From Kineosporia succinea (GTDB lineage Bacteria > Actinomycetota > Actinomycetes > Actinomycetales > Kineosporiaceae), in assembly GCF_030811555.1 (NCBI RefSeq), contig NZ_JAUSQZ010000001.1, positions 310,001-374,000 of the forward strand: a stretch of 64,000 bases of DNA. Direction: 5' to 3'. This document shows positions 3,220 through 27,774 of the stretch, in pieces. Position 1 is the first letter of the stretch. The number at the start of each line of letters is the position of its first letter. The translations under genes were made by a program, and so were the position numbers. Below the pieces are notes generated by a model. It was not told where the DNA came from and ran no database searches. It saw only the letters and a list, made by a program, of their open reading frames with translations.

Positions 3220-5844
3220 TCAGGAGGGCAACTCGCGGCGCGCACTGTCGGAGCGGTCGGGGGTGCGGGCCACCCGGATCTCGGCGTCGAGCACCGCGAG
3301 CCCGTGCTCGGCGACCACCACCGGGTTGAGCTCGAGCCGGCTGATCTCGGGCAGCTCGTCGGCCAGGCAGGCGAGACGGCCGATCAGGTCTTCGAGGGCG
3401 GGCACGTCGACGGGGGCGGCGCCGTTGTGCCCGAACAGCTTGGGCGCGGCGCGCACCGAGCGCACCAGGTCGGAGATGTCGACGTCGGTCAGCGGCGGGA
3501 TGCGGTGGGCGACGTCACCGAGCAGCCCGATCGCGTCACCGCCGAGCCCGAACGAGACGACCGGGCCGAACAGCGGGTCCTCCACCGTCCGCAGCACACA
3601 GGCCACACCGGGCTCGGCCATGGTCTGCACCACCAGTTCGCCCGGCCCCAGACTCGCGCGCATCTGGGCGAAGTCGGCGCGCAGCTCGGCCTCGTCCTCG
3701 ATGTTGAGGCGCACTCCCCCGAGGTCGACGCGGTGACGCAGGTGCGGCGCGGTGGTCTTGAGCACGACCGGGTAACCGATGGTGAACGCGGCGGTGGCCG
3801 CCTCGTCGGCGGTGGTCACCGGGGTACGGGGCCAGAGGGTGATGCCGAACGCCCGCAGCAGCTGGGCGGAGGCTTCGGGGCCGAGGTGCTCCTCGTCCTG
3901 GTCGAGAGCCTGCTGGATGATGCTTCGGGCGGCGCCGAGGTCGAGGTCGGCGGGCTCGAACCGCTCCCCCGGGTCACGGCGGCGCCAGCGGGCGTACCAC
4001 TCGGCCTTGGCCAGGGCGCGCACCGCTTCCTCGGGGGTCGGGTAGGACGGGATGTTGTTCAGCGCCCGGTTGACCCCGTGGACGCCGAGAAAGCAGGCCA
4101 CGACCGGGATCTCGGGCGATCCGGCGGAGACCTCGGACAGCGCCCGGGCCACCTCGCCGGCCTCGGTGGCGATCGGGGGGATGAAGGCGGCGACGACCGA
4201 GTGCACGTCGTCGGCGGCGAAGGCCTCGGTGAGCGCGGCGCGGAACTGCTCGGCACTGGCCTGCGGGTGGAGGGCGACGGGTTTGTGCGCGACGGACAGG
4301 CCCGCGGCCACGCAGGCGTCGGCGATCAGGGTGCTCAGGGCGTCGCTGTTGCCGACGATCGCGACGTTCGGCCCCTTCGGCGGGGGCTGGTGCATGACCA
4401 CCTGGGCCACGTCGAGCATCTCGGCCACGGTGTGCACGCGGATGCAGCCCGACTGCCGCAGCATGGCGTCGAAGGCCTCGCGCGGCGCGGTGCTGGTTCT
4501 GACGGAATGCCCCGGCGGCACCCCGAAACTCGACAGGCCGGACTTGAGCACGATGACCGGTTTGGAGCGGGCCAGGCGACGGGCGATCCGCGAGAACTTG
4601 CGCGGGTTGCCGAAACTCTCCAGGTACAGGCCGACGGCGTCGGTGTGCGGGTCTTCCTCCCAGTACTGCATGCAGTCGTTGCCGGACACGTCGGCCCGGT
4701 TGCCCGCGGACAGGAAGGTGGACACCCCCAGGCCTCGCCGCTCGACCGCGTCGAGCACGGCCACCGCGAGCCCGCCGGACTGCGAGAAGAGGCCCAGGCG
4801 GCCCTCTTTCGGCAGCTCCGGAATCAGCGACATGTTGAGCCGGACGTTCTCACCGGCGTTGATCAGGCCCCAGGAGTTCGGGCCGACCACCCGCATGCCG
4901 TGCGCGCGGGCCGTGCGCACCAGTTCGCGCTGCCGGGCCAGTCCCTCGTCGCCGGTCTCGGCGAAACCGCTGGACACGACCACCATTCCGCGCACGCCGT
5001 GCTCGGCACAGTCGCGCACCACGTCGAGCACGCCCTGCGCCGGGATCGCGATCAGGGCCAGGTCGATGGGGCCCTCGATGTCCTTCAGGTTCTTCACCGT
5101 GGGCAGGCCCAGGAGCTGGTCGGCCTCGTGGTGGACGAGGTGGAGACGCCCCGTGAAGCCGCCGCCGACGATGTTGGCGAGGAGGCGGTGGCCGACGGTC
5201 GCGGTGCGGCGGCTGGCGCCGATCAGCACGACCGACGAGGGGTTGAGCAGGCGCTCCATGCTGCGGGACTCGGCGCGGTGCTCGCGGGCCTCCATCACGG
5301 CCAGGGACTTCTCGGTCGGGTCGATGGTGAAGCGGACCTCGATCACGCCGTCGTCGAAGCGGGCCTTGACCTCGTAGCCGGCCTCCTGGAACACGGTGAG
5401 CATCTTGCGGTTGCGGGGCAGGACGTCGGCGACGAAGCGGCGGATGCCGTTCTCCCGGGCCGCCGCGGCCAGGTGCTCGAGCAGGACGGAGCTGATGCCG
5501 CGGCCCTGGTGCGCGTCGCTGATGTTGAAGGCGACCTCGGCCGCGTCACTGCTCGGGCCCAGGCGGTCGTAGCGGCCGACACCCACGATGTCGTCGCCGA
5601 GGACCGCGATCAGGGCCACCCGGTCGGAGTGGTCGACGTTGGTGAAATGGTGCAGGTCGCGCGGGGACAGGCGGGGCATGGGCGCGAAGAAGCGCAGGTA
5701 GACCGACTCGGGTGACTGGTGCACGTGGAAGCGTTGCAGGGCGTCGGCGTCGTCGGCGGTGATCGGGCGCAGGTGTGCGGTCGCGCCGTCACGCAGCACG
5801 ACGTCGGCTTCCCAGTGCAGGGGGTAGTCGCGGACCACGTTCAC
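3220..5844 (-). CDS. GNAT acetyltransferase fused to ADP-forming acyl-CoA synthetase-like module (Pat-type)
   Basis: About 874 aa from the GTG at 5844. An N-terminal GNAT domain (about residues 10-170; LRPITADDADALQRF, HQGRGISSVLLEHLA acetyl-CoA loop) is followed by a CoA-binding domain (LLNPSSVVLIGASRRTATVG), succinyl-CoA-ligase-like domains (LGLFSQSGGLAVAVLDA) and a C-terminal ATP-grasp subunit (GYPVVLKTTAPHLRHRVDLG). Proteins of this build are protein lysine acetyltransferases that commonly silence acetyl-CoA synthetase; the synthetase half usually senses and does not catalyse. The longer frame up to 6000 would run into the divergent nitroreductase. The GTG at 5844 fits the family N-terminus NVVRDYPLHWEADVVL, although its ribosome site is poor. 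Domain order is clear; the acyl donor and targets are inference. Confidence 0.88.
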   Translation of the reverse strand: MNVVRDYPLHWEADVVLRDGATAHLRPITADDADALQRFHVHQSPESVYLRFFAPMPRLSPRDLHHFTNVDHSDRVALIAVLGDDIVGVGRYDRLGPSSDAAEVAFNISDAHQGRGISSVLLEHLAAAARENGIRRFVADVLPRNRKMLTVFQEAGYEVKARFDDGVIEVRFTIDPTEKSLAVMEAREHRAESRSMERLLNPSSVVLIGASRRTATVGHRLLANIVGGGFTGRLHLVHHEADQLLGLPTVKNLKDIEGPIDLALIAIPAQGVLDVVRDCAEHGVRGMVVVSSGFAETGDEGLARQRELVRTARAHGMRVVGPNSWGLINAGENVRLNMSLIPELPKEGRLGLFSQSGGLAVAVLDAVERRGLGVSTFLSAGNRADVSGNDCMQYWEEDPHTDAVGLYLESFGNPRKFSRIARRLARSKPVIVLKSGLSSFGVPPGHSVRTSTAPREAFDAMLRQSGCIRVHTVAEMLDVAQVVMHQPPPKGPNVAIVGNSDALSTLIADACVAAGLSVAHKPVALHPQASAEQFRAALTEAFAADDVHSVVAAFIPPIATEAGEVARALSEVSAGSPEIPVVACFLGVHGVNRALNNIPSYPTPEEAVRALAKAEWYARWRRRDPGERFEPADLDLGAARSIIQQALDQDEEHLGPEASAQLLRAFGITLWPRTPVTTADEAATAAFTIGYPVVLKTTAPHLRHRVDLGGVRLNIEDEAELRADFAQMRASLGPGELVVQTMAEPGVACVLRTVEDPLFGPVVSFGLGGDAIGLLGDVAHRIPPLTDVDISDLVRSVRAAPKLFGHNGAAPVDVPALEDLIGRLACLADELPEISRLELNPVVVAEHGLAVLDAEIRVARTPDRSDSARRELPS

Positions 5845-5956
5845 CAGGCTACGCAAGGCGGCGGCGTTACGCGCCGGGCCGGAGGTCCTTCGTGGGGGTG
5901 ATCTGGTGCACGCCGCCCCTTCGCGAAGGCAGCGTGGGGGCGGCAGGATCACGGTC

Positions 5957-6583
5957 ATGGAATTTGAGGACGCTGTCCGTCGCCGGCGCATGGTCCGCAC
6001 CTACGACTCCTCCCGCCCGGTGCCCCGCGAGACCCTGCACCGGCTGCTCGACCTCGCGGTGCGGGCGCCCAGTGCGGGGTTCAGCCAGGGATGGGACTTC
6101 GTGGTGCTGAGCACCGCCGGGCAGACCGGTCGTTTCTGGGAGGCCACCGCCGACCCCGATCGTGAGCCCGACCGCTGGCTGCGGGGCATGAGCACGGCGC
6201 CGGCGCTGATCCTGTGCCTGTCCGACCGCGACGCCTATCTCGACCGTTACGCCGAGCCCGACAAGGGCTGGACCGATCGCGACGAGGCACGCTGGCCCGT
6301 GCCCTACTGGGACGTGGACACCGGCATGGCGTCGATGATCATCCTGCTCGCGGCGGTGGACGCGGGACTGGCGGGCTGCTTCTTCGGAGTGCCGCCGCAG
6401 CGCCGCACGCAGGTGCTGGAGGCGTTCGGCATCCCGGCGGGCCGGCGGATCGTCGGGGTGATCAGCCTGGGACATCCGCCCGAGCCGGGGACGGACCGGA
6501 AGTCGCCGTCCCTGAAGCGGGGACGTCGACCGGTCGAAGAGGTCGCCCACGAGGGAACTTTCGGCCAACCGTTCCGGATCTGA
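5957..6583 (+). CDS. Nitroreductase-family FMN oxidoreductase
   Basis: 208 aa, an NAD(P)H/FMN-dependent nitroreductase-fold oxidoreductase. The N-terminal RRRMVRTYDSSRPVPRE motif is the usual FMN-phosphate-binding start, followed by LLDLAVRAPSAGFSQGWDF. The middle has VDTGMASMIILLAAVDAGLAG and the C-terminus GRRIVGVISLGHP, both family hallmarks. The ATG at 5957 starts right at the conserved N-terminus; the upstream in-frame extension to 5906 lacks family similarity. It is transcribed divergently from the GNAT gene across about 110 bp. The natural substrate (nitro compound, quinone or flavin) cannot be told. Confidence 0.88.
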   Translation: MEFEDAVRRRRMVRTYDSSRPVPRETLHRLLDLAVRAPSAGFSQGWDFVVLSTAGQTGRFWEATADPDREPDRWLRGMSTAPALILCLSDRDAYLDRYAEPDKGWTDRDEARWPVPYWDVDTGMASMIILLAAVDAGLAGCFFGVPPQRRTQVLEAFGIPAGRRIVGVISLGHPPEPGTDRKSPSLKRGRRPVEEVAHEGTFGQPFRI

Positions 6584-6654
6584 GACCGGAATCCCCTGTG
6601 CGTCACTGTGTTCGCCGGTCAGACGGGGCTCCCAGGTTCCCCTCCCGGTTCTGC

Positions 6655-6726
6655 CAGGATCGGGGAGCAGAGTTCTTCTCACGACAGCGGAACACACCGC
6701 TTCGCAACACAACTGAGGAGAACACC
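6655..6726 (+). promoter_or_regulatory. Promoter and leader, copy A of a repeated cassette
   Basis: A -10-like CAGGAT (6655-6660) is followed by a leader with GTTCTTCTCACGACAGCG that recurs as GTTCTTCCCACGACAGCG at copy B. A small stem AGCGG/CCGCT (6686-6690 with 6697-6701) precedes the Shine-Dalgarno TGAGGAG, 7 nt before the ATG at 6727. No -35 is evident. Confidence 0.5.
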
Positions 6727-6843
6727 ATGGCGAAGATCATCAAGGCCCGGCACCGTCGTCCCGTCGAGAAGACCGTGACCCCGCCGAAGAAGCGCGACGA
6801 GCGCCCCCAGGCGGAGCCGGCACGGGCCGGTCGCGACAACTGA
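6727..6843 (+). CDS. Small basic protein, cassette copy A (38 aa), unknown family
   Basis: A 38-residue, strongly basic, Pro-rich protein that begins MAKIIKARHRRPVEK and ends PARAGRDN. It has a good ribosome site (GAGGAG, 7 nt spacing) and its own terminator. A paralogue with the same N-terminal KARHRRP block and the same C-terminal PARAGRD block lies 254 bp downstream, while the middle Lys/Glu/Gln part differs. Conservation of both ends with a variable centre argues that it is a real gene. There is no Cys, no Ser-rich stretch, no signal peptide and no membrane helix. I do not recognise the family. A nucleic-acid- or ribosome-binding miniprotein, or a peptide exported by the downstream ABC protein, are both possible and unproven. 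Confidence 0.72.
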   Translation: MAKIIKARHRRPVEKTVTPPKKRDERPQAEPARAGRDN

Positions 6844-6898
6844 GATCCAGCTCCCCCGGAGCTGACCGCTACTGAGCGAGGGGCCTGAGAGCACAGGC

Positions 6899-6935
6899 CG
6901 GGGCCGGTGCACACCACGCGTGTGCACCGGCCCCG
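6899..6935 (+). terminator. Intrinsic terminator of cassette copy A
   Basis: A perfect 15-bp stem (left arm 6899-6913, right arm 6921-6935) with a 7-nt loop, followed by CTGCTTTT. The arm sequence CGGGGCCGGTGCACA is repeated almost exactly in the copy B terminator. Confidence 0.9.
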
Positions 6936-7030
6936 CTGCTTTTCCCTGAGAGAGAACATTTTCCGGAGAGTGACAGGCCAATACGCCTGCATGAACTTAT
7001 GTTTCTCAAAGGTCACGGATCTGTTGCTCT

Positions 7031-7097
7031 CAGGATCGACCGGCAGTGTTCTTCCCACGACAGCGAAACGGTCGCTGGCAACACGAAGGAGCCGAAC
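7031..7097 (+). promoter_or_regulatory. Promoter and leader, copy B of a repeated cassette
   Basis: CAGGATCG (7031-7038) and GTTCTTCCCACGACAGCG match copy A. The stem is CAGCG/CGCTG (7061-7065 with 7073-7077), so both arms differ from copy A while pairing is kept. A Shine-Dalgarno AAGGAG precedes the ATG at 7098. Confidence 0.5.
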
Positions 7098-7217
7098 ATG
7101 ACGAAGATCCTCAAGGCCCGTCACCGTCGCCCCGCCGAGAAGGTCGAGGCGCAGCCGAAGAAGAAGCGCCGCGAGCAGCAGGAGCAGCCGCAGCCGGCGC
7201 GGGCCGGACGGGACTGA
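7098..7217 (+). CDS. Small basic protein, cassette copy B (39 aa), unknown family
   Basis: Paralogue of the 38-aa protein at 6727. It begins MTKILKARHRRPAEK and ends QPARAGRD. The central segment is KKKRREQQEQ-like, more basic and Gln-rich than copy A. AAGGAG lies 7 nt before the ATG, and a strong terminator follows 29 nt after the stop. The conserved leader, ends and terminator show that the whole transcription unit was duplicated. No recognised domain, no secretion signal. Located 196 bp upstream of the ABC exporter gene, which has a similar leader. Function unknown. Confidence 0.72.
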   Translation: MTKILKARHRRPAEKVEAQPKKKRREQQEQPQPARAGRD

Positions 7218-7245
7218 GACTCCCGAGGCGCGTCCAGCCACAGGC

Positions 7246-7279
7246 CGGGGCCGATGCACAGAGATGTGCACCGGCCCCG
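7246..7279 (+). terminator. Intrinsic terminator of cassette copy B
   Basis: Stem 7246-7260 with 7265-7279 (one A/C mismatch) around a GAGA loop, followed by CCGGGTTTTG. Nearly identical in sequence to the copy A terminator. Confidence 0.88.
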
Positions 7280-7350
7280 CCGGGTTTTGCCCGGCCGGGC
7301 GACGACGGTCACGGACACCTCCCAGACTCCGGCCGGACCGCTGTCAGCCG

Positions 7351-7413
7351 GGTCCGGCAGCGTTCCCCCCACGGCGGTGAAAGCCGCATCGCCCCAAGGA
7401 AAGAAGAGACGAC
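7351..7413 (+). promoter_or_regulatory. Third, divergent copy of the cassette leader before the ABC gene
   Basis: GGCAGCGTTCCCCCCACGGCGGTGAAAGCCGC aligns with the leaders of the two small ORFs (GCAG-GTTC-CCACG-GCG order kept). It can form GCGG/CCGC (7374-7377 with 7384-7387). The ribosome site AAGGAAAGAAG follows. The -10 hexamer of copies A and B is not conserved here. Confidence 0.35.
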
Positions 7414-9537
7414 ATGGTGAGCCCGGTCCCGTCCGGCGAGGTTCCCACCCCGGGTGCCGACCCGGTCCCCGACGAGGCGACCGACCCGCCCCGGCTCACC
7501 TGGCCCCAGGTGCTGCGCCGGTTCTGGCCGCTGACCCGGGGCCGCCGGGCGGCCATGGCCGGAGCGCTCCTGGCCTTCACCCTGGCCGTGGTCGCCGACG
7601 CGATCGGCATCGAGCTGCTCTCCACCCTCATCGACGGGGCGGTGGAAGACGCTGACCTGTCCCAGTTCTGGCACCCGGCGGCGATCTGGGCCGGGATCAC
7701 GCTGTGCGCGGCGGCCCTCACCTACCTCGGGTCGGTGCTCACCGCGTCGGCCGCCGAGCGCTTCTCCCGGCGTCTGCGCGCACAGACCCACGACCACCTG
7801 CTCACCGTCGCCCCCGAGGAACTCGACCGCCGGGCCCTGGGTGACGTGCTGTCCCGGGTGGTCGACGACACCGAGGACGTCGAGCACCTCACCGTGACCG
7901 GGATCATCGACGCCGCCGGATCCGCGCTCGCCGTCGTCATCTTCGGGATCGCGGCCTGGCGGCAGAGCTGGATGCTGGCCCTGGTCGTGCTCGCCGCCGC
8001 ACCGGTGATCTGGCTGCTGAACCGCTGGCTCACCGACCGCACCCACCGCTTCTCCATGCGTACCCGGGTGGCGCACGGTGCTCTGACGTCCGCCCTGGAG
8101 CAGAGCCTGACCAATTCGGCCCTGGTGCAGGCCTACAACGCACGGCCCGCCGAACGGCGCCGCCTGTCGCTGGTCTCGGGCCGGCTGATGACCGCCCGGC
8201 TGCGCCAGACGCGGCTCGCGGCCGTGCAGGGGCCGCTCACCGAACTGGTCGAGACGGCCGGGCTTCTCGCGGTCATCGGTATCGGGGTGATCGACATCGC
8301 GACCGGTGACCTGACCGTCGGCGGACTCCTCGCCTTCACCGCGTACCTGACGTTCCTGTACCCGCCGATCACCGCGCTCGGCCAGCTGGGGCTCACCGCG
8401 TCCAGCTCGGGAACCAGTGCGGCGCGGCTCGTGGAGCTGCTCGACCTGACGCCCGCCGTGCGCGAACTCGAGCCGGCCGCCGGAGCCGACCGACGCGTCC
8501 ACCATTCGCCGCCCCCGAACCCGGACCCGACCACGGACCCGACCGCGGCCCTTCGCCCGGTGCCCCTCGCGCGCCCGGACCTGGTCATCGAGAACGTGAC
8601 CGTGCGCTCCCCCGGGCGTGCCGACCGGCTCAGCGACGTGAGTCTGCGCATCCCGGCGGGTGCGCTGGTGATGGTGACCGGGCCGAGCGGTGCCGGGAAG
8701 TCCACCCTGGTGGAGCTTCTCGTGCGGTTCCGTGACCCGGACACCGGCCGGGTGCTGCTCGCGGGCCGCGACCTGCGCGACTTCCCGCTGGAGGAACTGC
8801 GTGACCAGGTGACGTTACTGCCGCAGGAACCGTTCATGTTCGACGAGACGGTGCGCGAGAACATCACCTACGGCGTCGCCCGGGACCCGGGCACCGACGC
8901 CATCCGGATCGCGGCCCAGGACAGCGGCGCCGAGGAGTTCCTGAAGCGGCTGCCCGAGGGCCTGGCCACCCCGGTCGGTCAGCGCGGCCGGGCTCTTTCG
9001 GGAGGTCAGCGCCAGCGTCTGGCGCTGGCCCGGGCACTGCTGCGTGGTGGTCCGGTGCTGGTGCTCGACGAGCCGACCACCGGTCTCGACCCCCAGGCGG
9101 CGGACGACCTGATCACCACCCTGCGCCTCCTCACCGAGCAGGGACGCACCGTGCTGCTGGTCACGCACGACCGCGAACTGACGCGCCGGGCCGACCAGGT
9201 CGTGGAGATCCGGGCCGGCCGGGTGCACCGTTCGAGCGTCTCGCCGCACTCCCGCACCCGCCCGATCCGGGTCGGCCAGAGGCTCGGTCACTCCACCGGC
9301 CTTGTGGCCGTGCCCGACGCGAGCCCCGAACCACGAACCTCCGAACCGCGGATCTCCGAACCACGAACCTCCGAACCATGGACGACCGGGCCACGCACGT
9401 TCGGACACCCGCCGGACGCGAGGCCGAGCCCCGGACGGCGCCGCACCGAACCGCCCAAGGCCACGACGACCCGGTCGCAGCTGATCCGCAGGGAACGCGC
9501 CCAGGAGCAGAACCAGGCCCCCGCCCAGCCGAGCTGA
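7414..9537 (+). CDS. ABC transporter, fused permease and ATPase (exporter type)
   Basis: 707 aa half-transporter of the exporter class, expected to work as a dimer in the membrane. Residues about 25-330 hold the six-helix transmembrane domain (FWPLTRGRRAAMAGALLAFT onward). A Pro/Asp-rich linker of about 40 residues precedes the ATPase. Walker A GPSGAGKST lies at residues 423-431 (Lys429), the signature is LSGGQRQRLALARALL, Walker B is VLVLDEPTT and the H-loop LLVTHD. No C39 peptidase domain is present at the N-terminus. After the ATPase there is an unusual tail of about 110 residues, rich in Pro/Arg/Ser with SEPRT/SEPRI/SEPRT/SEPW repeats, that is not part of the family. A leader resembling those of the two upstream small basic ORFs suggests a shared system. 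The substrate is unknown. Confidence 0.9.
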   Translation: MVSPVPSGEVPTPGADPVPDEATDPPRLTWPQVLRRFWPLTRGRRAAMAGALLAFTLAVVADAIGIELLSTLIDGAVEDADLSQFWHPAAIWAGITLCAAALTYLGSVLTASAAERFSRRLRAQTHDHLLTVAPEELDRRALGDVLSRVVDDTEDVEHLTVTGIIDAAGSALAVVIFGIAAWRQSWMLALVVLAAAPVIWLLNRWLTDRTHRFSMRTRVAHGALTSALEQSLTNSALVQAYNARPAERRRLSLVSGRLMTARLRQTRLAAVQGPLTELVETAGLLAVIGIGVIDIATGDLTVGGLLAFTAYLTFLYPPITALGQLGLTASSSGTSAARLVELLDLTPAVRELEPAAGADRRVHHSPPPNPDPTTDPTAALRPVPLARPDLVIENVTVRSPGRADRLSDVSLRIPAGALVMVTGPSGAGKSTLVELLVRFRDPDTGRVLLAGRDLRDFPLEELRDQVTLLPQEPFMFDETVRENITYGVARDPGTDAIRIAAQDSGAEEFLKRLPEGLATPVGQRGRALSGGQRQRLALARALLRGGPVLVLDEPTTGLDPQAADDLITTLRLLTEQGRTVLLVTHDRELTRRADQVVEIRAGRVHRSSVSPHSRTRPIRVGQRLGHSTGLVAVPDASPEPRTSEPRISEPRTSEPWTTGPRTFGHPPDARPSPGRRRTEPPKATTTRSQLIRRERAQEQNQAPAQPS

Positions 9538-10856: not shown

Positions 10857-10918
10857 CCCGACCTATGGTGAACCATCCGACGCACCTGGTGATCCACCCC
10901 GACAGCAAGGAGCCGCCC

Positions 10919-13099
10919 GTGGCCGTGCAACCCAGCGAGACGGCCCGATCCCGCGCCGGCGGCACCGGCAAGCGATCGGCTTCCGCGGGCTCACGCACTT
11001 CCGGCGACTCCGGGTACACCGCGCGTCACCTGTCGGTGCTGGAGGGCCTGGAGGCCGTCCGCAAGCGCCCCGGTATGTACATCGGCTCGACCGACTCCCG
11101 CGGCCTCATGCACTGCCTGTGGGAGATCATCGACAACGCGGTCGACGAGGCCCTGGCCGGCCACTGCCAGCACATCCGGGTGATCCTGCACGCCGACGGC
11201 TCGGTCGAGGTGCACGACGACGGCCGCGGCATCCCGGTCGACGTGGAGCCCAAGACCGGTCTGACCGGCGTCGAGGTGGTCTTCACCAAGCTGCACGCCG
11301 GCGGCAAGTTCGGCGGCGGCTCCTACACCGCCTCCGGCGGTCTGCACGGCGTCGGCGCCAGCGTGGTCAACGCGCTCTCGGCCCGCCTCGACGTGCAGGT
11401 CGACCGGGGCGGCCAGGTCCACGCCATGAGCTTCCGCCGCGGCGAGCCCGGTGTGTTCGCCGGGCTCGACCCCGAGGCCGAGTTCACACCCTTCATCGAC
11501 AACTCCGCCCTGCAGATCGTGGGCAAGGTCAAGCGGGGCGTCACCGGCAGCCGGGTGCGTTACTGGGCCGACCGCCAGATCTTCCTGAAAGACGCCGCGT
11601 TCTCGTACGACGAGCTGGTCACCCGCGCCCGCCAGACCACCTACCTGGTGCCCGGTCTGGAGATCGTGCTGCGCGACGAGCGCGGCCTGCCCGGCACGCC
11701 CGGCGAGCAGGCCCCGGTGGAGGAACGCTTCCTGCACGAGGGTGGCATCGGCGAGTTCGTCGACTTCCTCGCCACCGACCCGCAGGTCACCGATGTGTGG
11801 CGGCTCGAGGGCACCGGCCACTTCAAGGAGACCGTGCCGGTCCTCGACTCCCGCGGCCACATGGCGCCGACCGAGGTCGAGCGCGAGTGCTTCGTCGACG
11901 TGGCGATGCGCTGGGGCACGGGCTACGACACCGAGCTGCGTTCGTTCGTCAACATCATCGCCACGCCCAAGGGCGGCACCCACGTCACCGGTTTCGAGCA
12001 GGCGATGCTCAAGACGCTGCGCACGGTGGTGTCCGAGAACGCCCGCAAGCTCAAGTTCAGCGAGAAGAACGACAAGATCGAGAAGGACGACGTGCTCGAG
12101 GGCCTCACGGCCGTCGTCACCGTGCGCCTCGCCGAGCCGCAGTTCGAGGGCCAGACCAAGGAGGTGCTGGGCACCAACGCGGTGCGCGGCATCGTCTCGC
12201 GGGTCATCGAGCGCGAGCTCACGGCCCACCTCAACGCCACCGGCCGGGCTGAGAAGGCGCAGGCCGGGCTGGTTCTCGAGAAGGTCGTGGGCGCCATGCG
12301 CACCCGCGTCACGGCCCGTCAGCACCGCGAGACCCAGCGCCGCAAGAACGCGCTGGAGACCTCGACGCTGCCGACGAAGCTGAAAGACTGCCGCAGCGAA
12401 GACGTCGACCGCTCGGAACTCTTCATCGTGGAGGGTGACTCGGCGCTCGGTACCGCGAACTTCGCACGCAACAGCGAGTTCCAGGCCCTGCTGCCGATCC
12501 GGGGCAAGATCCTCAACGTGCAGAAGGCGTCCATCGCCGACATGCTCAAGAACGCCGAGTGCGGTGCGATCATCCAGGTGATCGGCGCCGGTTCGGGCCG
12601 CACGTTCGAGCTGCCGGCCGCGCGCTACGGCAAGATCATCCTGATGACCGACGCCGACGTCGACGGCGCGCACATCCGCACGCTGCTGCTCACGCTCTTC
12701 TTCCGCTACATGCGCCCGCTGGTCGAGGCCGGCCGGGTCTACGCCGCGGTCCCGCCGCTGCACCGGGTCGAGGTCATCGGCTCCGGGCGGCAGAAGAACG
12801 AGATGGTCTACACCTACTCCGAGCAGGAGCTCCAGCGGCTGCTGGCCGACCTGAAGAAGCGCGGTCGCAGCTGGAAGGAGAACATCCAGCGCTACAAGGG
12901 CCTGGGTGAGATGGACGCCGACCAGCTGGCGGAGACCACGATGGACCCGCGCCGCCGCACGCTGCGCCGGGTCCGGATGGCCGACCTGGCCGCCGCCGAG
13001 CACGTCTTCAACCTGCTCATGGGCAACGACGTGGCGCCTCGCAAGGACTTCATCATCGAGGGTGCGGCCGGGCTCGACCGCGAGCGCATCGACGCCTGA
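10919..13099 (+). CDS. parE: DNA topoisomerase IV subunit B (ATPase)
   Basis: 726 aa. ATPase subunit that works with ParC to decatenate chromosomes and relax supercoils. The GHKL ATPase (YTARHLSVLEGLEAVRKRPG, GSTDSRGLMHCLWEIIDN, HDDGRGIPVD) is followed by the transducer domain and a TOPRIM domain (EGDSALGTA; DADVDGAHIRTLLL) and ends with the conserved RRTLRRVRM block. GTG at 10919 has AAGGAG at 10907-10912 with 6 nt spacing and is preferred; an in-frame ATG at 10865 would add 18 residues with no family similarity. The parC gene lies about 2.7 kb downstream on the other strand, so this is read as topoisomerase IV and not a second gyrase. A LexA-type box overlaps the promoter, which is unexpected for this gene. 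Confidence 0.93.
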   Translation: MAVQPSETARSRAGGTGKRSASAGSRTSGDSGYTARHLSVLEGLEAVRKRPGMYIGSTDSRGLMHCLWEIIDNAVDEALAGHCQHIRVILHADGSVEVHDDGRGIPVDVEPKTGLTGVEVVFTKLHAGGKFGGGSYTASGGLHGVGASVVNALSARLDVQVDRGGQVHAMSFRRGEPGVFAGLDPEAEFTPFIDNSALQIVGKVKRGVTGSRVRYWADRQIFLKDAAFSYDELVTRARQTTYLVPGLEIVLRDERGLPGTPGEQAPVEERFLHEGGIGEFVDFLATDPQVTDVWRLEGTGHFKETVPVLDSRGHMAPTEVERECFVDVAMRWGTGYDTELRSFVNIIATPKGGTHVTGFEQAMLKTLRTVVSENARKLKFSEKNDKIEKDDVLEGLTAVVTVRLAEPQFEGQTKEVLGTNAVRGIVSRVIERELTAHLNATGRAEKAQAGLVLEKVVGAMRTRVTARQHRETQRRKNALETSTLPTKLKDCRSEDVDRSELFIVEGDSALGTANFARNSEFQALLPIRGKILNVQKASIADMLKNAECGAIIQVIGAGSGRTFELPAARYGKIILMTDADVDGAHIRTLLLTLFFRYMRPLVEAGRVYAAVPPLHRVEVIGSGRQKNEMVYTYSEQELQRLLADLKKRGRSWKENIQRYKGLGEMDADQLAETTMDPRRRTLRRVRMADLAAAEHVFNLLMGNDVAPRKDFIIEGAAGLDRERIDA

Positions 13100-13110
13100 G
13101 GTTCGGCTGA

Positions 13111-13142
13111 TCAGGGCGGTTCCCGTGCGGGAACCGCCCTGA
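13111..13142 (+). terminator. Intrinsic terminator of parE
   Basis: A perfect 15-bp stem (13111-13125 with 13128-13142) starting 11 nt after the parE stop codon, with no U-tract. Confidence 0.85.
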
Positions 13143-13214
13143 CTCATGAGGACCGCCGAGGAATTTCACCCCGACGGGCTCAAGCGGCGCCCACCCCGGC
13201 CCGAAGTTCTGGCC

Positions 13215-14000
13215 ATGAAGCGCCCGAGGTTGTCAACGATCACTCCCTCCAGCCTCAGCCCGCGGGGGAAGTCGGCCGGTAGGTCCGTCAGCAAGTCCGT
13301 GCACACGCTGCAGGAACTGCGGAAACACCTGCCCGCCGACGTGCGCGGACGGCTGCAGGTCCATCTGCCGCACCGGCAGGCCCGGCGCCGTGACCACCGT
13401 CTGCTCATCGCGGGTGGTGTCGCGGTCACGCTGATCGCCGCCGCGGCTGCCGTGTACACGGCCCGCACCCGGCTGAAGCAGCTGCTGGACAAGCGCTCGA
13501 CCGAGAACTCCGAGCGCGGCCTGGACACGCTGACCGGTCTGCCGAACCGCGCCGAGGCGCAGTGGTGGCTGAACACGCGCCTGGCCCGCGCCCGTAACCG
13601 CAATCACCGGCTGGCCGTGATGATCCTCGACATCAACGGTTTCGCGGATCTCAACGAGATCCACGGCCGTGAGGTCGGCGACCACGTGCTGCAGGTGACC
13701 GCGGCGCGCATGCAGTCGCAGCTGCGCACCGGCGACATGGTCTGCCGCGTCGCGAACGACACCTTCATGGTGATCATGGACGCGATCGGCCCCGACCACC
13801 TGATCGCCCGCATCGGCGAGCGCGTCGTGACCACGGTGAGCGAGCCGATCAGCTTCCACGGCGAGCCGATCACCATCTCGGCCAGCGTCGGGTTCGCGAT
13901 CTCGCTCGACAAGGACAAGACCCCGGAACTCCTTCTGGACCGCGCCGACCGGGCGCTGGTGCAGGCAAAAGCGTCGAACCGCAACGTGGTTCAGTTCTGA
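13215..14000 (+). CDS. Membrane-anchored GGDEF-domain protein with degenerate active site
   Basis: 261 aa from the ATG at 13215; the alternative ATG at 13146 touches the parE terminator and is unlikely. One transmembrane helix at about residues 63-82 (LLIAGGVAVTLIAAAAAVYT) precedes a GGDEF-fold domain (LDTLTGLPNRAEAQ, VMILDINGFADLNEIHG, ISASVGFAIS, LDRADRALVQAKA). The signature GGDEF loop is replaced by ANDTF (residues 180-184): both glycines and the catalytic Glu are lost. The protein should therefore not make c-di-GMP; it may bind GTP or partner proteins. The family fold is clear; the sensory role is inference. Confidence 0.85.
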   Translation: MKRPRLSTITPSSLSPRGKSAGRSVSKSVHTLQELRKHLPADVRGRLQVHLPHRQARRRDHRLLIAGGVAVTLIAAAAAVYTARTRLKQLLDKRSTENSERGLDTLTGLPNRAEAQWWLNTRLARARNRNHRLAVMILDINGFADLNEIHGREVGDHVLQVTAARMQSQLRTGDMVCRVANDTFMVIMDAIGPDHLIARIGERVVTTVSEPISFHGEPITISASVGFAISLDKDKTPELLLDRADRALVQAKASNRNVVQF

Positions 14001-27637: not shown

Positions 27638-27664
27638 GGCATCGAGACGGGTCGACTGGCGTCG

Positions 27665-27774
27665 ACCGCGCTTGCTGTCGCCGCAGCGACAACCTGGTCA
27701 TCACCCGGGGCACCCCACCGCGGAACGAGGGTTGCCGACCAGCAAGCCGGGGCTTGTCGCTGGTACTCATGACC
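27665..27774 (-). ncRNA. SAM-IV riboswitch upstream of metY
   Basis: On the minus strand: GGTCATGAG opens the P1 stem and GGGTGATGACC closes it. Between them are AAGCCCCGGCTTGCTGGTCG, GGCAACCCT and CGCGGTGGGGTGCCCC, the S-adenosylmethionine-binding core shared by SAM-I and SAM-IV. A further hairpin (TGTCGC/GCGACA) and AGCAAGCGCGG follow 3', as in the SAM-IV architecture of actinobacteria. A -10 TACTGT lies at 27784-27789, so the RNA starts within about three bases of P1. Confidence 0.92.

Follow-up and report, generated by a model that had tools for sequence, protein, structure and literature searches.

We analysed a window of 64,000 nucleotides, bases 310001-374000 of an 8.07 Mb single-contig Kineosporia genome (G000), in which two units lie in tandem at 6655-6943 and 7031-7288. 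Both have the same order of parts, namely CAGGAT, a leader, a 38- or 39-codon ORF and a GC-rich hairpin with a T run, and they are flanked on one side by a gene of the nitroreductase family (5906-6583) and on the other by that of an ABC exporter (7414-9537). The units share direct repeats of 77 nt (81%), 39 nt (82%), 37 nt (78%), 23 nt (87%) and 22 nt (82%), which, with homologues across the genus, bear out the tandem duplication of a leader, mini-ORF and terminator cassette that an earlier note on this DNA had proposed; the pair spans 6655-7288. The features of the locus are as follows.

6655..6660, + strand: CAGGAT, -10-like element of unit 1 (seen as sequence; -10 role putative, no -35 found)
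6672..6681, + strand: anti-Shine-Dalgarno arm GTTCTTCTCA of unit 1 (pairs with 6714-6723, duplex -14.6 kcal/mol)
6682..6704, + strand: inner hairpin of leader 1 (predicted fold; 0 of 200 shuffles equally stable)
6714..6723, + strand: Shine-Dalgarno arm TGAGGAGAAC of unit 1 (paired with probability 1.0 at 37 C, against a mean of 0.61 for shuffles, none of 60 reaching it)
6727..6843, + strand: mini-ORF 1, 38 aa (family present in 6/6 Kineosporia genomes)
6899..6943, + strand: intrinsic terminator 1 (16-bp stem and T run)
7031..7036, + strand: CAGGAT, -10-like element of unit 2 (seen as sequence; -10 role putative)
7048..7054, + strand: anti-Shine-Dalgarno arm GTTCTTC of unit 2 (predicted fold; Shine-Dalgarno paired probability 0.96, reached by 2 of 60 shuffles)
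7061..7077, + strand: inner hairpin of leader 2 (19 of 200 shuffles equally stable; weak taken singly)
7085..7091, + strand: Shine-Dalgarno GAAGGAG of unit 2 (sequence and predicted fold)
7098..7217, + strand: mini-ORF 2, 39 aa (family present in 6/6 Kineosporia genomes)
7243..7288, + strand: intrinsic terminator 2, separating mini-ORF 2 from the exporter gene (z = -4.0; 1 of 200 shuffles equally stable)
7357..7416, + strand: degenerate third leader, 5' of the exporter gene (match to leader model R1, 26.6 bits, E 1.4e-4 in 136 kb)
7414..9537, + strand: ABC exporter with ABC_membrane and ABC_tran, 707 aa (Pfam; genus-restricted within the genomes searched)

Six Kineosporia genomes were compared: G000, G001 (Kineosporia rhizophila), G002 (K. 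mesophila), G003, G004 (K. babensis) and G005. The window's units are called W1 and W2, and the copies in G001-G005 are G1, G2_1, G2_2, G3_1 to G3_5, G4, G5_1 and G5_2. Elsewhere in the window, a protein-acetyltransferase-like gene at 3220-6000 (-) encodes a GNAT domain fused to an acyl-CoA synthetase-like part (ATP-grasp_5, Succ_CoA_lig), and a gyrB-type gene followed by a GGDEF gene occupies 10865-14000; in G001, a gyrB-type gene and a DUF456 gene likewise lie near the mini-ORF locus.

In terminator 1, a stem of 16 bp without mismatches precedes CTGCTTTT; the stem of terminator 2 is similar, as previously described, but has one mismatch and leads into GGGTTTT. Their folding energies stand at z = -5.9 and z = -4.0, respectively, and a simple terminator scan lists terminator 1 only. 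The hexamer CAGGAT, read earlier as a -10 element, occurs at both 6655 and 7031, but a scan of both strands found no sigma-70-type pair, and the nine leaders outside the window have CAGGAA (8) or CAGAAA (1), so the label amounts to a guess. In several outside cassettes, a CTGCC...GGCAG inverted repeat, which is possibly an operator, surrounds CAGGAA; by eye, it is partly kept at 6649-6729 and 7025-7100.

A mini-protein family in the genus Kineosporia

The products of mini-ORFs 1 and 2 read MAKIIKARHRRP...PARAGRDN and MTKILKARHRRP...PARAGRD, and each ORF is preceded by an AGGAG Shine-Dalgarno. With mini-protein 2 as the sole query, matches were obtained in G001 (best E 1.7e-8), G004 (3.3e-8), G003 (7.8e-8), G002 (2.1e-4) and G005 (0.035), and all of these single-query matches within the genus fall at one shared locus adjoining the same exporter. 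Homologues in related genomes, on which the earlier note had made the reality of the ORFs depend, therefore exist: 13 full-length mini-ORFs are spread over all six genomes (two in G000, one in G001, two in G002, five in G003, one in G004 and two in G005). Their profile E-values (7.6e-13 to 1.5e-18) are self-matches, the profile having been trained on the same copies. A leader precedes 11 of the 13, while G2_2 and G3_3, directly behind another mini-ORF, have a Shine-Dalgarno only.

The family members are basic proteins of 36-40 aa with a net charge of +4 to +9. An N-terminal block, MAKILKARxRRP, is kept with synonymous changes among the copies and includes the invariant residues K6, R8, R10, R11 and P12; the middle diverges freely, and the composition of the tail holds at P, Q, R, K, A, E and D despite drift in its sequence. 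Of the two conserved ends described from the window copies, the N-terminal one persists, but across the genus the C-terminal one is reduced to RD, present in 11/13 copies. An AlphaFold model has no secondary structure (pLDDT 65).

That the mini-protein belongs to no known family was borne out in the libraries searched: the two window mini-proteins had no match in Pfam, NCBIfam or PADLOC, the 13 members found nothing better than E 0.48 in PHROGs (one of the 13, to one unnamed family), and the profile matched no PDB sequence up to E 10. In the seven non-Kineosporia genomes of the family (13 searched; several assemblies fragmented), the best matches (E 0.096 to 0.79) were partial and were judged to be chance, as was the outcome for 52 non-genus genomes searched with the single query, where no match was better than E 0.035. 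A class-wide profile search, in which 19 candidates were scored per genome, gave one hit among 394 genomes at E 1e-3, namely the window's own. Plasmids yielded no mini-protein match, phages gave seven records at E 5 to 9 that were judged to be chance, and one stretch of the viral contigs fitted the mini-protein pattern, with none confirmed. Literature searches listed no open-access paper that, judged by its title and the start of its abstract, deals with such a family, which is not proof of absence.

Selection on the mini-ORFs is uneven. Codons 2-12 had a pN of 0.105 and a pS of 0.290 over all pairs (ratio 0.36), and alignment columns 2-15 had a between-genome dN/dS of 0.49, compared with 0.73 for the last eight columns and a pooled 1.83 for the middle, a poorly aligned region; these ratios call for caution, because GC3 is 0.97 after codon 12, which damps synonymous change, and the middle aligns poorly. 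Whole-ORF values for close pairs, each with few changes, were 1.07 (G2_2/G5_2), 0.38 (G3_1/G3_3) and 2.22 (G3_2/G3_4), and the adjoining exporter had 0.18 between G002 and G005. Some protein-level constraint thus acts on the N block, with the remainder nearly free or diversifying. Selection on a small product, as formerly suggested, is thus seen in the N block (pN/pS 0.36, dN/dS 0.49) but not in the middle (~1.8) or consistently in whole-ORF pairs (1.07, 0.38, 2.22). A dN/dS near 1, named beforehand as a sign against these ORFs being genes, is touched on by the whole-ORF values and by the middle, and protein-level constraint is shown for the N block only. From sequence comparison, the mini-ORFs are supported as a real gene family. 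The family looks young, with tandem expansion under way and between one and five copies in each genome, and most of the mini-protein is less well conserved than its control element.

Type I toxin-antitoxin units have a locked Shine-Dalgarno, tandem copies and a small ORF. The cassettes share these traits, and could be units of a similar kind, with a small peptide, an mRNA locked at its Shine-Dalgarno, tandem copies and a putative antisense RNA. Such toxins are hydrophobic, membrane-spanning peptides, whereas the mini-proteins are hydrophilic, basic and strictly linked to an exporter, and with only 4 to 6 LIVMFWYC residues among their 36-40 they would have no membrane helix; we therefore regard this reading as extremely unlikely. 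A promoter scan gave nothing on the opposite strand, which says little because the coding strand gave nothing either.

The adjoining exporter and the order of parts

The 7414-9537 product passes Pfam cut-offs for ABC_membrane (E 2.8e-34), ABC_tran (E 8.6e-32) and AAA_21 only; it reaches no NCBIfam cut-off among the matches listed, and Pfam detects no peptidase domain in it. With ABC_membrane and ABC_tran in a single chain, it has the make-up of an MsbA/ABCB-type exporter, and its nearest PDB sequences (best 60 listed) include ABCB, MsbA and BmrA chains. PADLOC matches map to the ATPase part, and the AlphaFold model is poor (pLDDT 46). The window's copy has a proline-rich linker (8449-8584) and a C-terminal tail (9244-9537) that ends in IRRERAQEQNQAPAQPS and resembles the mini-protein tails in make-up; five of the seven exporter copies are only 611-633 aa long.

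At E 1e-80, each Kineosporia genome has one orthologue of the exporter, except for two in G003, and the seven other genomes of the family, several in fragmented assemblies, have none. A pattern scan of genome contigs for the exporter returned 16 relatives, three in Kineosporia at 73-80% identity and 13 others at 24-38%. One to four full mini-ORFs stand directly upstream of all seven exporter copies, and all 13 full-length mini-ORFs sit just 5' of an exporter. Synteny of the cassettes with an ABC exporter, which if seen in other genera had been named as support for a system, holds for 7/7 copies in the six Kineosporia genomes but was found nowhere outside the genus (seven other family genomes). 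The gene on the other side of the locus varies, being of the nitroreductase family in four genomes and a TetR gene in G004, while that of G001 has a weak, sub-cut-off match to periplasmic binding proteins.

The hairpins between mini-ORF and exporter differ among copies. A 3' hairpin with four T follows seven of the 13 mini-ORFs (W1, W2, G2_2, G3_1, G3_3, G4 and G5_2), one with three T follows G3_5, and one without a T run follows G5_1, G1 and G3_4; behind G2_1 and G3_2 the next mini-ORF comes directly, in place of a hairpin. At G1 and G3_4 the T-less hairpin lies inside the longest reading frame of the exporter (L047:6730-6800 (-) and L049:6558-6625), and since the T run is lost and the hairpin falls within the longest predicted frame, the mini-ORF and exporter of G001, and those of the first G003 exporter, look like one unit. 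At the second G003 exporter, the gap from hairpin to start codon is only ~50-60 nt, which favours read-through. The order of peptide gene, hairpin and exporter, the variable copy number and these two one-unit-like cases argue that the exporter and the mini-protein serve one function.

The same order of mini-ORF, terminator and exporter would also suit a regulatory leader peptide, in which case the act of translating the mini-ORF, and not the peptide made, would determine whether transcription continues past the terminator into the exporter gene. The freely drifting middle fits this explanation, as does a 14-codon ORF, MVKAPPARHRRAVT or MVKARPARHRRAVT, that lies immediately 5' of the exporter in G002 and G005 and looks like a remnant. 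We nevertheless think it improbable: as many as four tandem copies precede one exporter, with terminators between some of them; G2_2 and G3_3 each come second after another mini-ORF and lack their own leader; the RD near the end is retained in 11/13 copies; and no antiterminator pairing is evident in whole folds of the two window transcripts.

Leaders with a predicted Shine-Dalgarno lock

The GTTCTTC(T/C) motif noted earlier in the leaders is indeed shared by the two units, but is better explained as one arm of a predicted fold in which the Shine-Dalgarno is sequestered, and leaders of a similar kind are found 5' of two other genes. In the predicted outer helix, GUUCUUCUC(A) pairs with (U)GAGGAGAAC, and the two arms enclose an inner hairpin; the outer duplex of W1 comprises 10 bp, one of them U-G. 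Of the 11 mini-ORF leaders, 10 carry UUCUUC in the arm and the other, G3_5, carries CCUUUC; in ten cassette leaders, GCG(A/G)(A/G)AC occupies the 5' side and the loop of the inner hairpin.

Shuffle tests covered ten distinct cassette leaders, the near-duplicate G3_4 being left out. The arm duplex averaged -9.2 kcal/mol, compared with -6.2 kcal/mol when the arms were shuffled (none of 200 shuffled sets as low), and the inner hairpin -10.2 versus -4.8 kcal/mol (lowest of 200 shuffled sets -6.4). The Shine-Dalgarno had a paired probability of 0.93, compared with 0.56 when the upstream part was shuffled as a control (highest of 60 sets 0.72); a comparison with other genes was dropped, as only five qualified. 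Because the ten leaders are related, these set-level tests are not independent trials. Taken singly, nine leaders had a Shine-Dalgarno occlusion reached by 0 to 7 of 60 shuffles and G5_2 one reached by 17 of 60, and for the inner hairpins 0 to 23 of 200 shuffles were equally stable. The lock is retained in the predicted folds of both whole window transcripts.

Covariation gave a mixed picture. RNAalifold on a MAFFT alignment returned three pairs and no compensatory change, and in the plain alignment the signal was not above shuffles (281 of 500 equalled or exceeded the observed paired cells, and 385 of 500 the covariation). For two model-fitted alignments, paired cells were reached by 0 of 500 shuffles, covariation by 4 and 3 of 500, and both-sided changes by 43 and 37 of 500; in one of them, the structure slid by -3 gave 79.6% paired cells, compared with 74.1% for the structure itself. 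As model-fitted alignments lean towards the structure by construction, we place more trust in the single-sequence shuffle tests. Judging from these predicted folds, the leader resembles a Shine-Dalgarno lock, with an outer anti-Shine-Dalgarno/Shine-Dalgarno helix around an inner hairpin. An Rfam search of the window gave 11 matches in 6600-7500, each below its cut-off; only SAM-IV reaches its gathering score, at 27663-27774 (-), where a SAM-IV riboswitch scores 109 bits.

A leader of this kind might be an RNA thermometer that melts on warming and so frees translation of the mini-ORF. The helix that holds the Shine-Dalgarno is imperfect and includes a U-G pair, and an excerpt of PMC12857270 reports thermometers before ABC transporter genes. 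The arm, however, has no UUUU run and no CUGCU with a bulged G, and in predictions for 20, 30, 37 and 45 C, the Shine-Dalgarno pairing of the ten cassette leaders is still 0.71 to 1.0 at 45 C; we consider a thermometer very unlikely.

Leader model R1 was not trained on the exporter's leader at 7357-7416. In this degenerate leader, neither the Shine-Dalgarno lock (14 of 60 shuffles as high) nor the hairpin rises above shuffles. In the window's own genome, R1 made one unlinked match, at G000:C1:3065386-3065457 (25.9 bits, E 0.013 genome-wide), directly 5' of a gene for a 270-aa protein (L091:1987-2868) with an N-terminal signal-like segment, which we read from its sequence as secreted-type. Next to it lies a gene for a sigma factor of the SigE family (TIGR02983, 145.2 bits with the cut-off at 141.55; tested in G000), and L091:3899-4183 encodes a distant repeat of part of the 270-aa protein.

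Orthologues of this protein (62-67% identity) with a leader of the same design occur in G005 (L095), G002 (L114) and G001 (L121), that is, in four of six genomes with G000. Model R2, whose training set additionally took in the G000 and G005 secreted-type leaders, scores the G002 leader at 38.6 bits (E 3e-7); the G001 leader reaches only 17.8 bits (E 0.81) and so rests on its position and sequence, and R2 matched no secreted-type leader in G003 or G004. The four secreted-type leaders share CGTGTTCTT followed by a strong hairpin. Their inner hairpins are above shuffles (0 or 1 of 200 equally stable), whereas their Shine-Dalgarno lock is so only in G000 (45, 19 and 17 of 60 as high in the other three).

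Exact CGACAGCGAAAC sites number at least 14 in the six genomes, six of them in cassettes; on inspection of eight non-cassette sites, only that at the G000 secreted-type gene (L108) proved to be a leader. Among seven stretches with weak leader-model matches, L095 is a leader, while L093, L094, L097, L098 and L099 are not by eye. L096:657-745, from another genus of the family (G010), has a weak match of 22.1 bits (E 0.075) with a different hairpin; its context is Shine-Dalgarno-like, and the ORF that follows has a start resembling a signal. In a class-wide search, one of 197 genomes, the window's own, had the leader at E 0.01 under strict filters.

Leaders at an unlinked gene bear on a further reading, in which the mini-protein would be an arginine-rich RNA-binding regulator. 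It would attach to the inner hairpin both in its own leader and in the sister leaders at the exporter and secreted-type genes, and so shut or open them; the tail would be a disordered arm, and the exporter and secreted-type protein the output. The basic block with invariant K6, R8, R10, R11 and P12, the net charge of +4 to +9, the inner-hairpin GCG(A/G)(A/G)AC of ten cassette leaders and the AlphaFold model without secondary structure (pLDDT 65) are all compatible with this, and same-design leaders at an unlinked gene in four of six genomes would fit a trans-acting factor; that unlinked occurrence is the strongest reason to prefer a regulator over a cargo. G003, with five mini-ORFs, and G004 had no matched secreted-type leader, however, stem sequence differs among cassettes, and binding is purely putative, so that we rate a regulator as unlikely, if less so than the other alternatives. 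A fuller version, a chromosomal peptide-RNA switch in which the KxRxRRP block binds the inner hairpin and controls its own copies, the exporter and the unlinked secreted-type gene in trans, is doubtful to a greater degree. If true, it would be a small regulon run by two elements, a protein of 38 residues and a leader of 60 nt, each confined to the genus as far as searched.

A candidate peptide-exporter module and its likeness to known systems

The explanation that we favour, tentatively and at somewhat short of even confidence, is a Kineosporia module in which a multi-copy basic mini-protein, most likely cargo, would be paired with a dedicated exporter, and its translation held back by a locking leader. 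The leader fold would keep mini-ORF translation low until opened by a protein, a ligand, RNA or ribosome traffic, and the terminators would give a high mini-protein-to-exporter ratio. The exporter might be reached by read-through or through its own degenerate leader, hence both would respond to the same cue. The mini-protein, as the exporter's partner, would probably be exported as a secreted basic peptide, with recognition falling to its conserved N-terminus and the acting or spacer role to its variable tail. The module is supported by the co-occurrence of mini-ORFs and exporter, which holds while the other-side gene changes, and by both being unfound in the seven other genomes of the family. 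The cargo part is weakened because by eye the mini-proteins have no secretion signal or double-glycine leader, no processing enzyme lies nearby, and the exporter is without a peptidase domain and nearest to ABCB, MsbA and BmrA, a kind of exporter whose substrates are mostly drugs or lipids. Should the peptides prove to be exported, they would represent an actinobacterial peptide class missing from the curated family libraries searched, and if the leader is a true switch, it would offer a test case for the birth of a new translational regulon within one genus.

In fourU thermometers, four U residues pair with the Shine-Dalgarno; the leaders are like these and the ROSE and ROSE-G elements in having a 5' arm that pairs with the Shine-Dalgarno, but their arms carry UUCUUC (10 of 11) or CCUUUC (G3_5) where the fourU class has its U run. 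In an excerpt of PMC12857270, ROSE-like and ROSE-G elements are found before ABC transporter genes, and the ROSE-G motif is a CUGCU that pairs with the Shine-Dalgarno, with a bulged G opposite a bulged G. The Kineosporia arm is GUUCUUC-like instead, and the leader further differs from all these thermometers in showing no predicted opening at 45 C and no match at an Rfam gathering score.

Phage lambda-type N proteins have a short arginine-rich N-terminus, a boxB hairpin in their own leader and terminators downstream. The mini-proteins are alike in all three respects; the P22 N peptide is the subject of PMC11480772, as far as an excerpt shows. They differ in having no phage context, and by sequence the 13 members do not group with phage N-type antiterminators (best E in PHROGs 0.48). 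The actinobacterial ribosomal proteins bS22 and bL37 are also small and basic, but are broadly conserved, whereas the equally short and basic mini-protein occurs in 1/394 sampled class genomes (19 candidates scored in each).

Bacteriocin-type operons combine a peptide gene, an attenuating stem-loop and a dedicated ABC exporter, and the Kineosporia locus resembles them in its small-peptide gene, in one or more copies, followed by a hairpin and then an exporter gene. It differs in that the exporter has no peptidase domain and the peptides, by eye, no double-glycine motif; with no Pfam or NCBIfam peptide match for the two window peptides either, these do not classify as bacteriocin or RiPP precursors. 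Leaders that sequester a Shine-Dalgarno and peptide-exporter pairs are thus already known kinds, and as far as tested it is the mini-protein family and its leader that are new.
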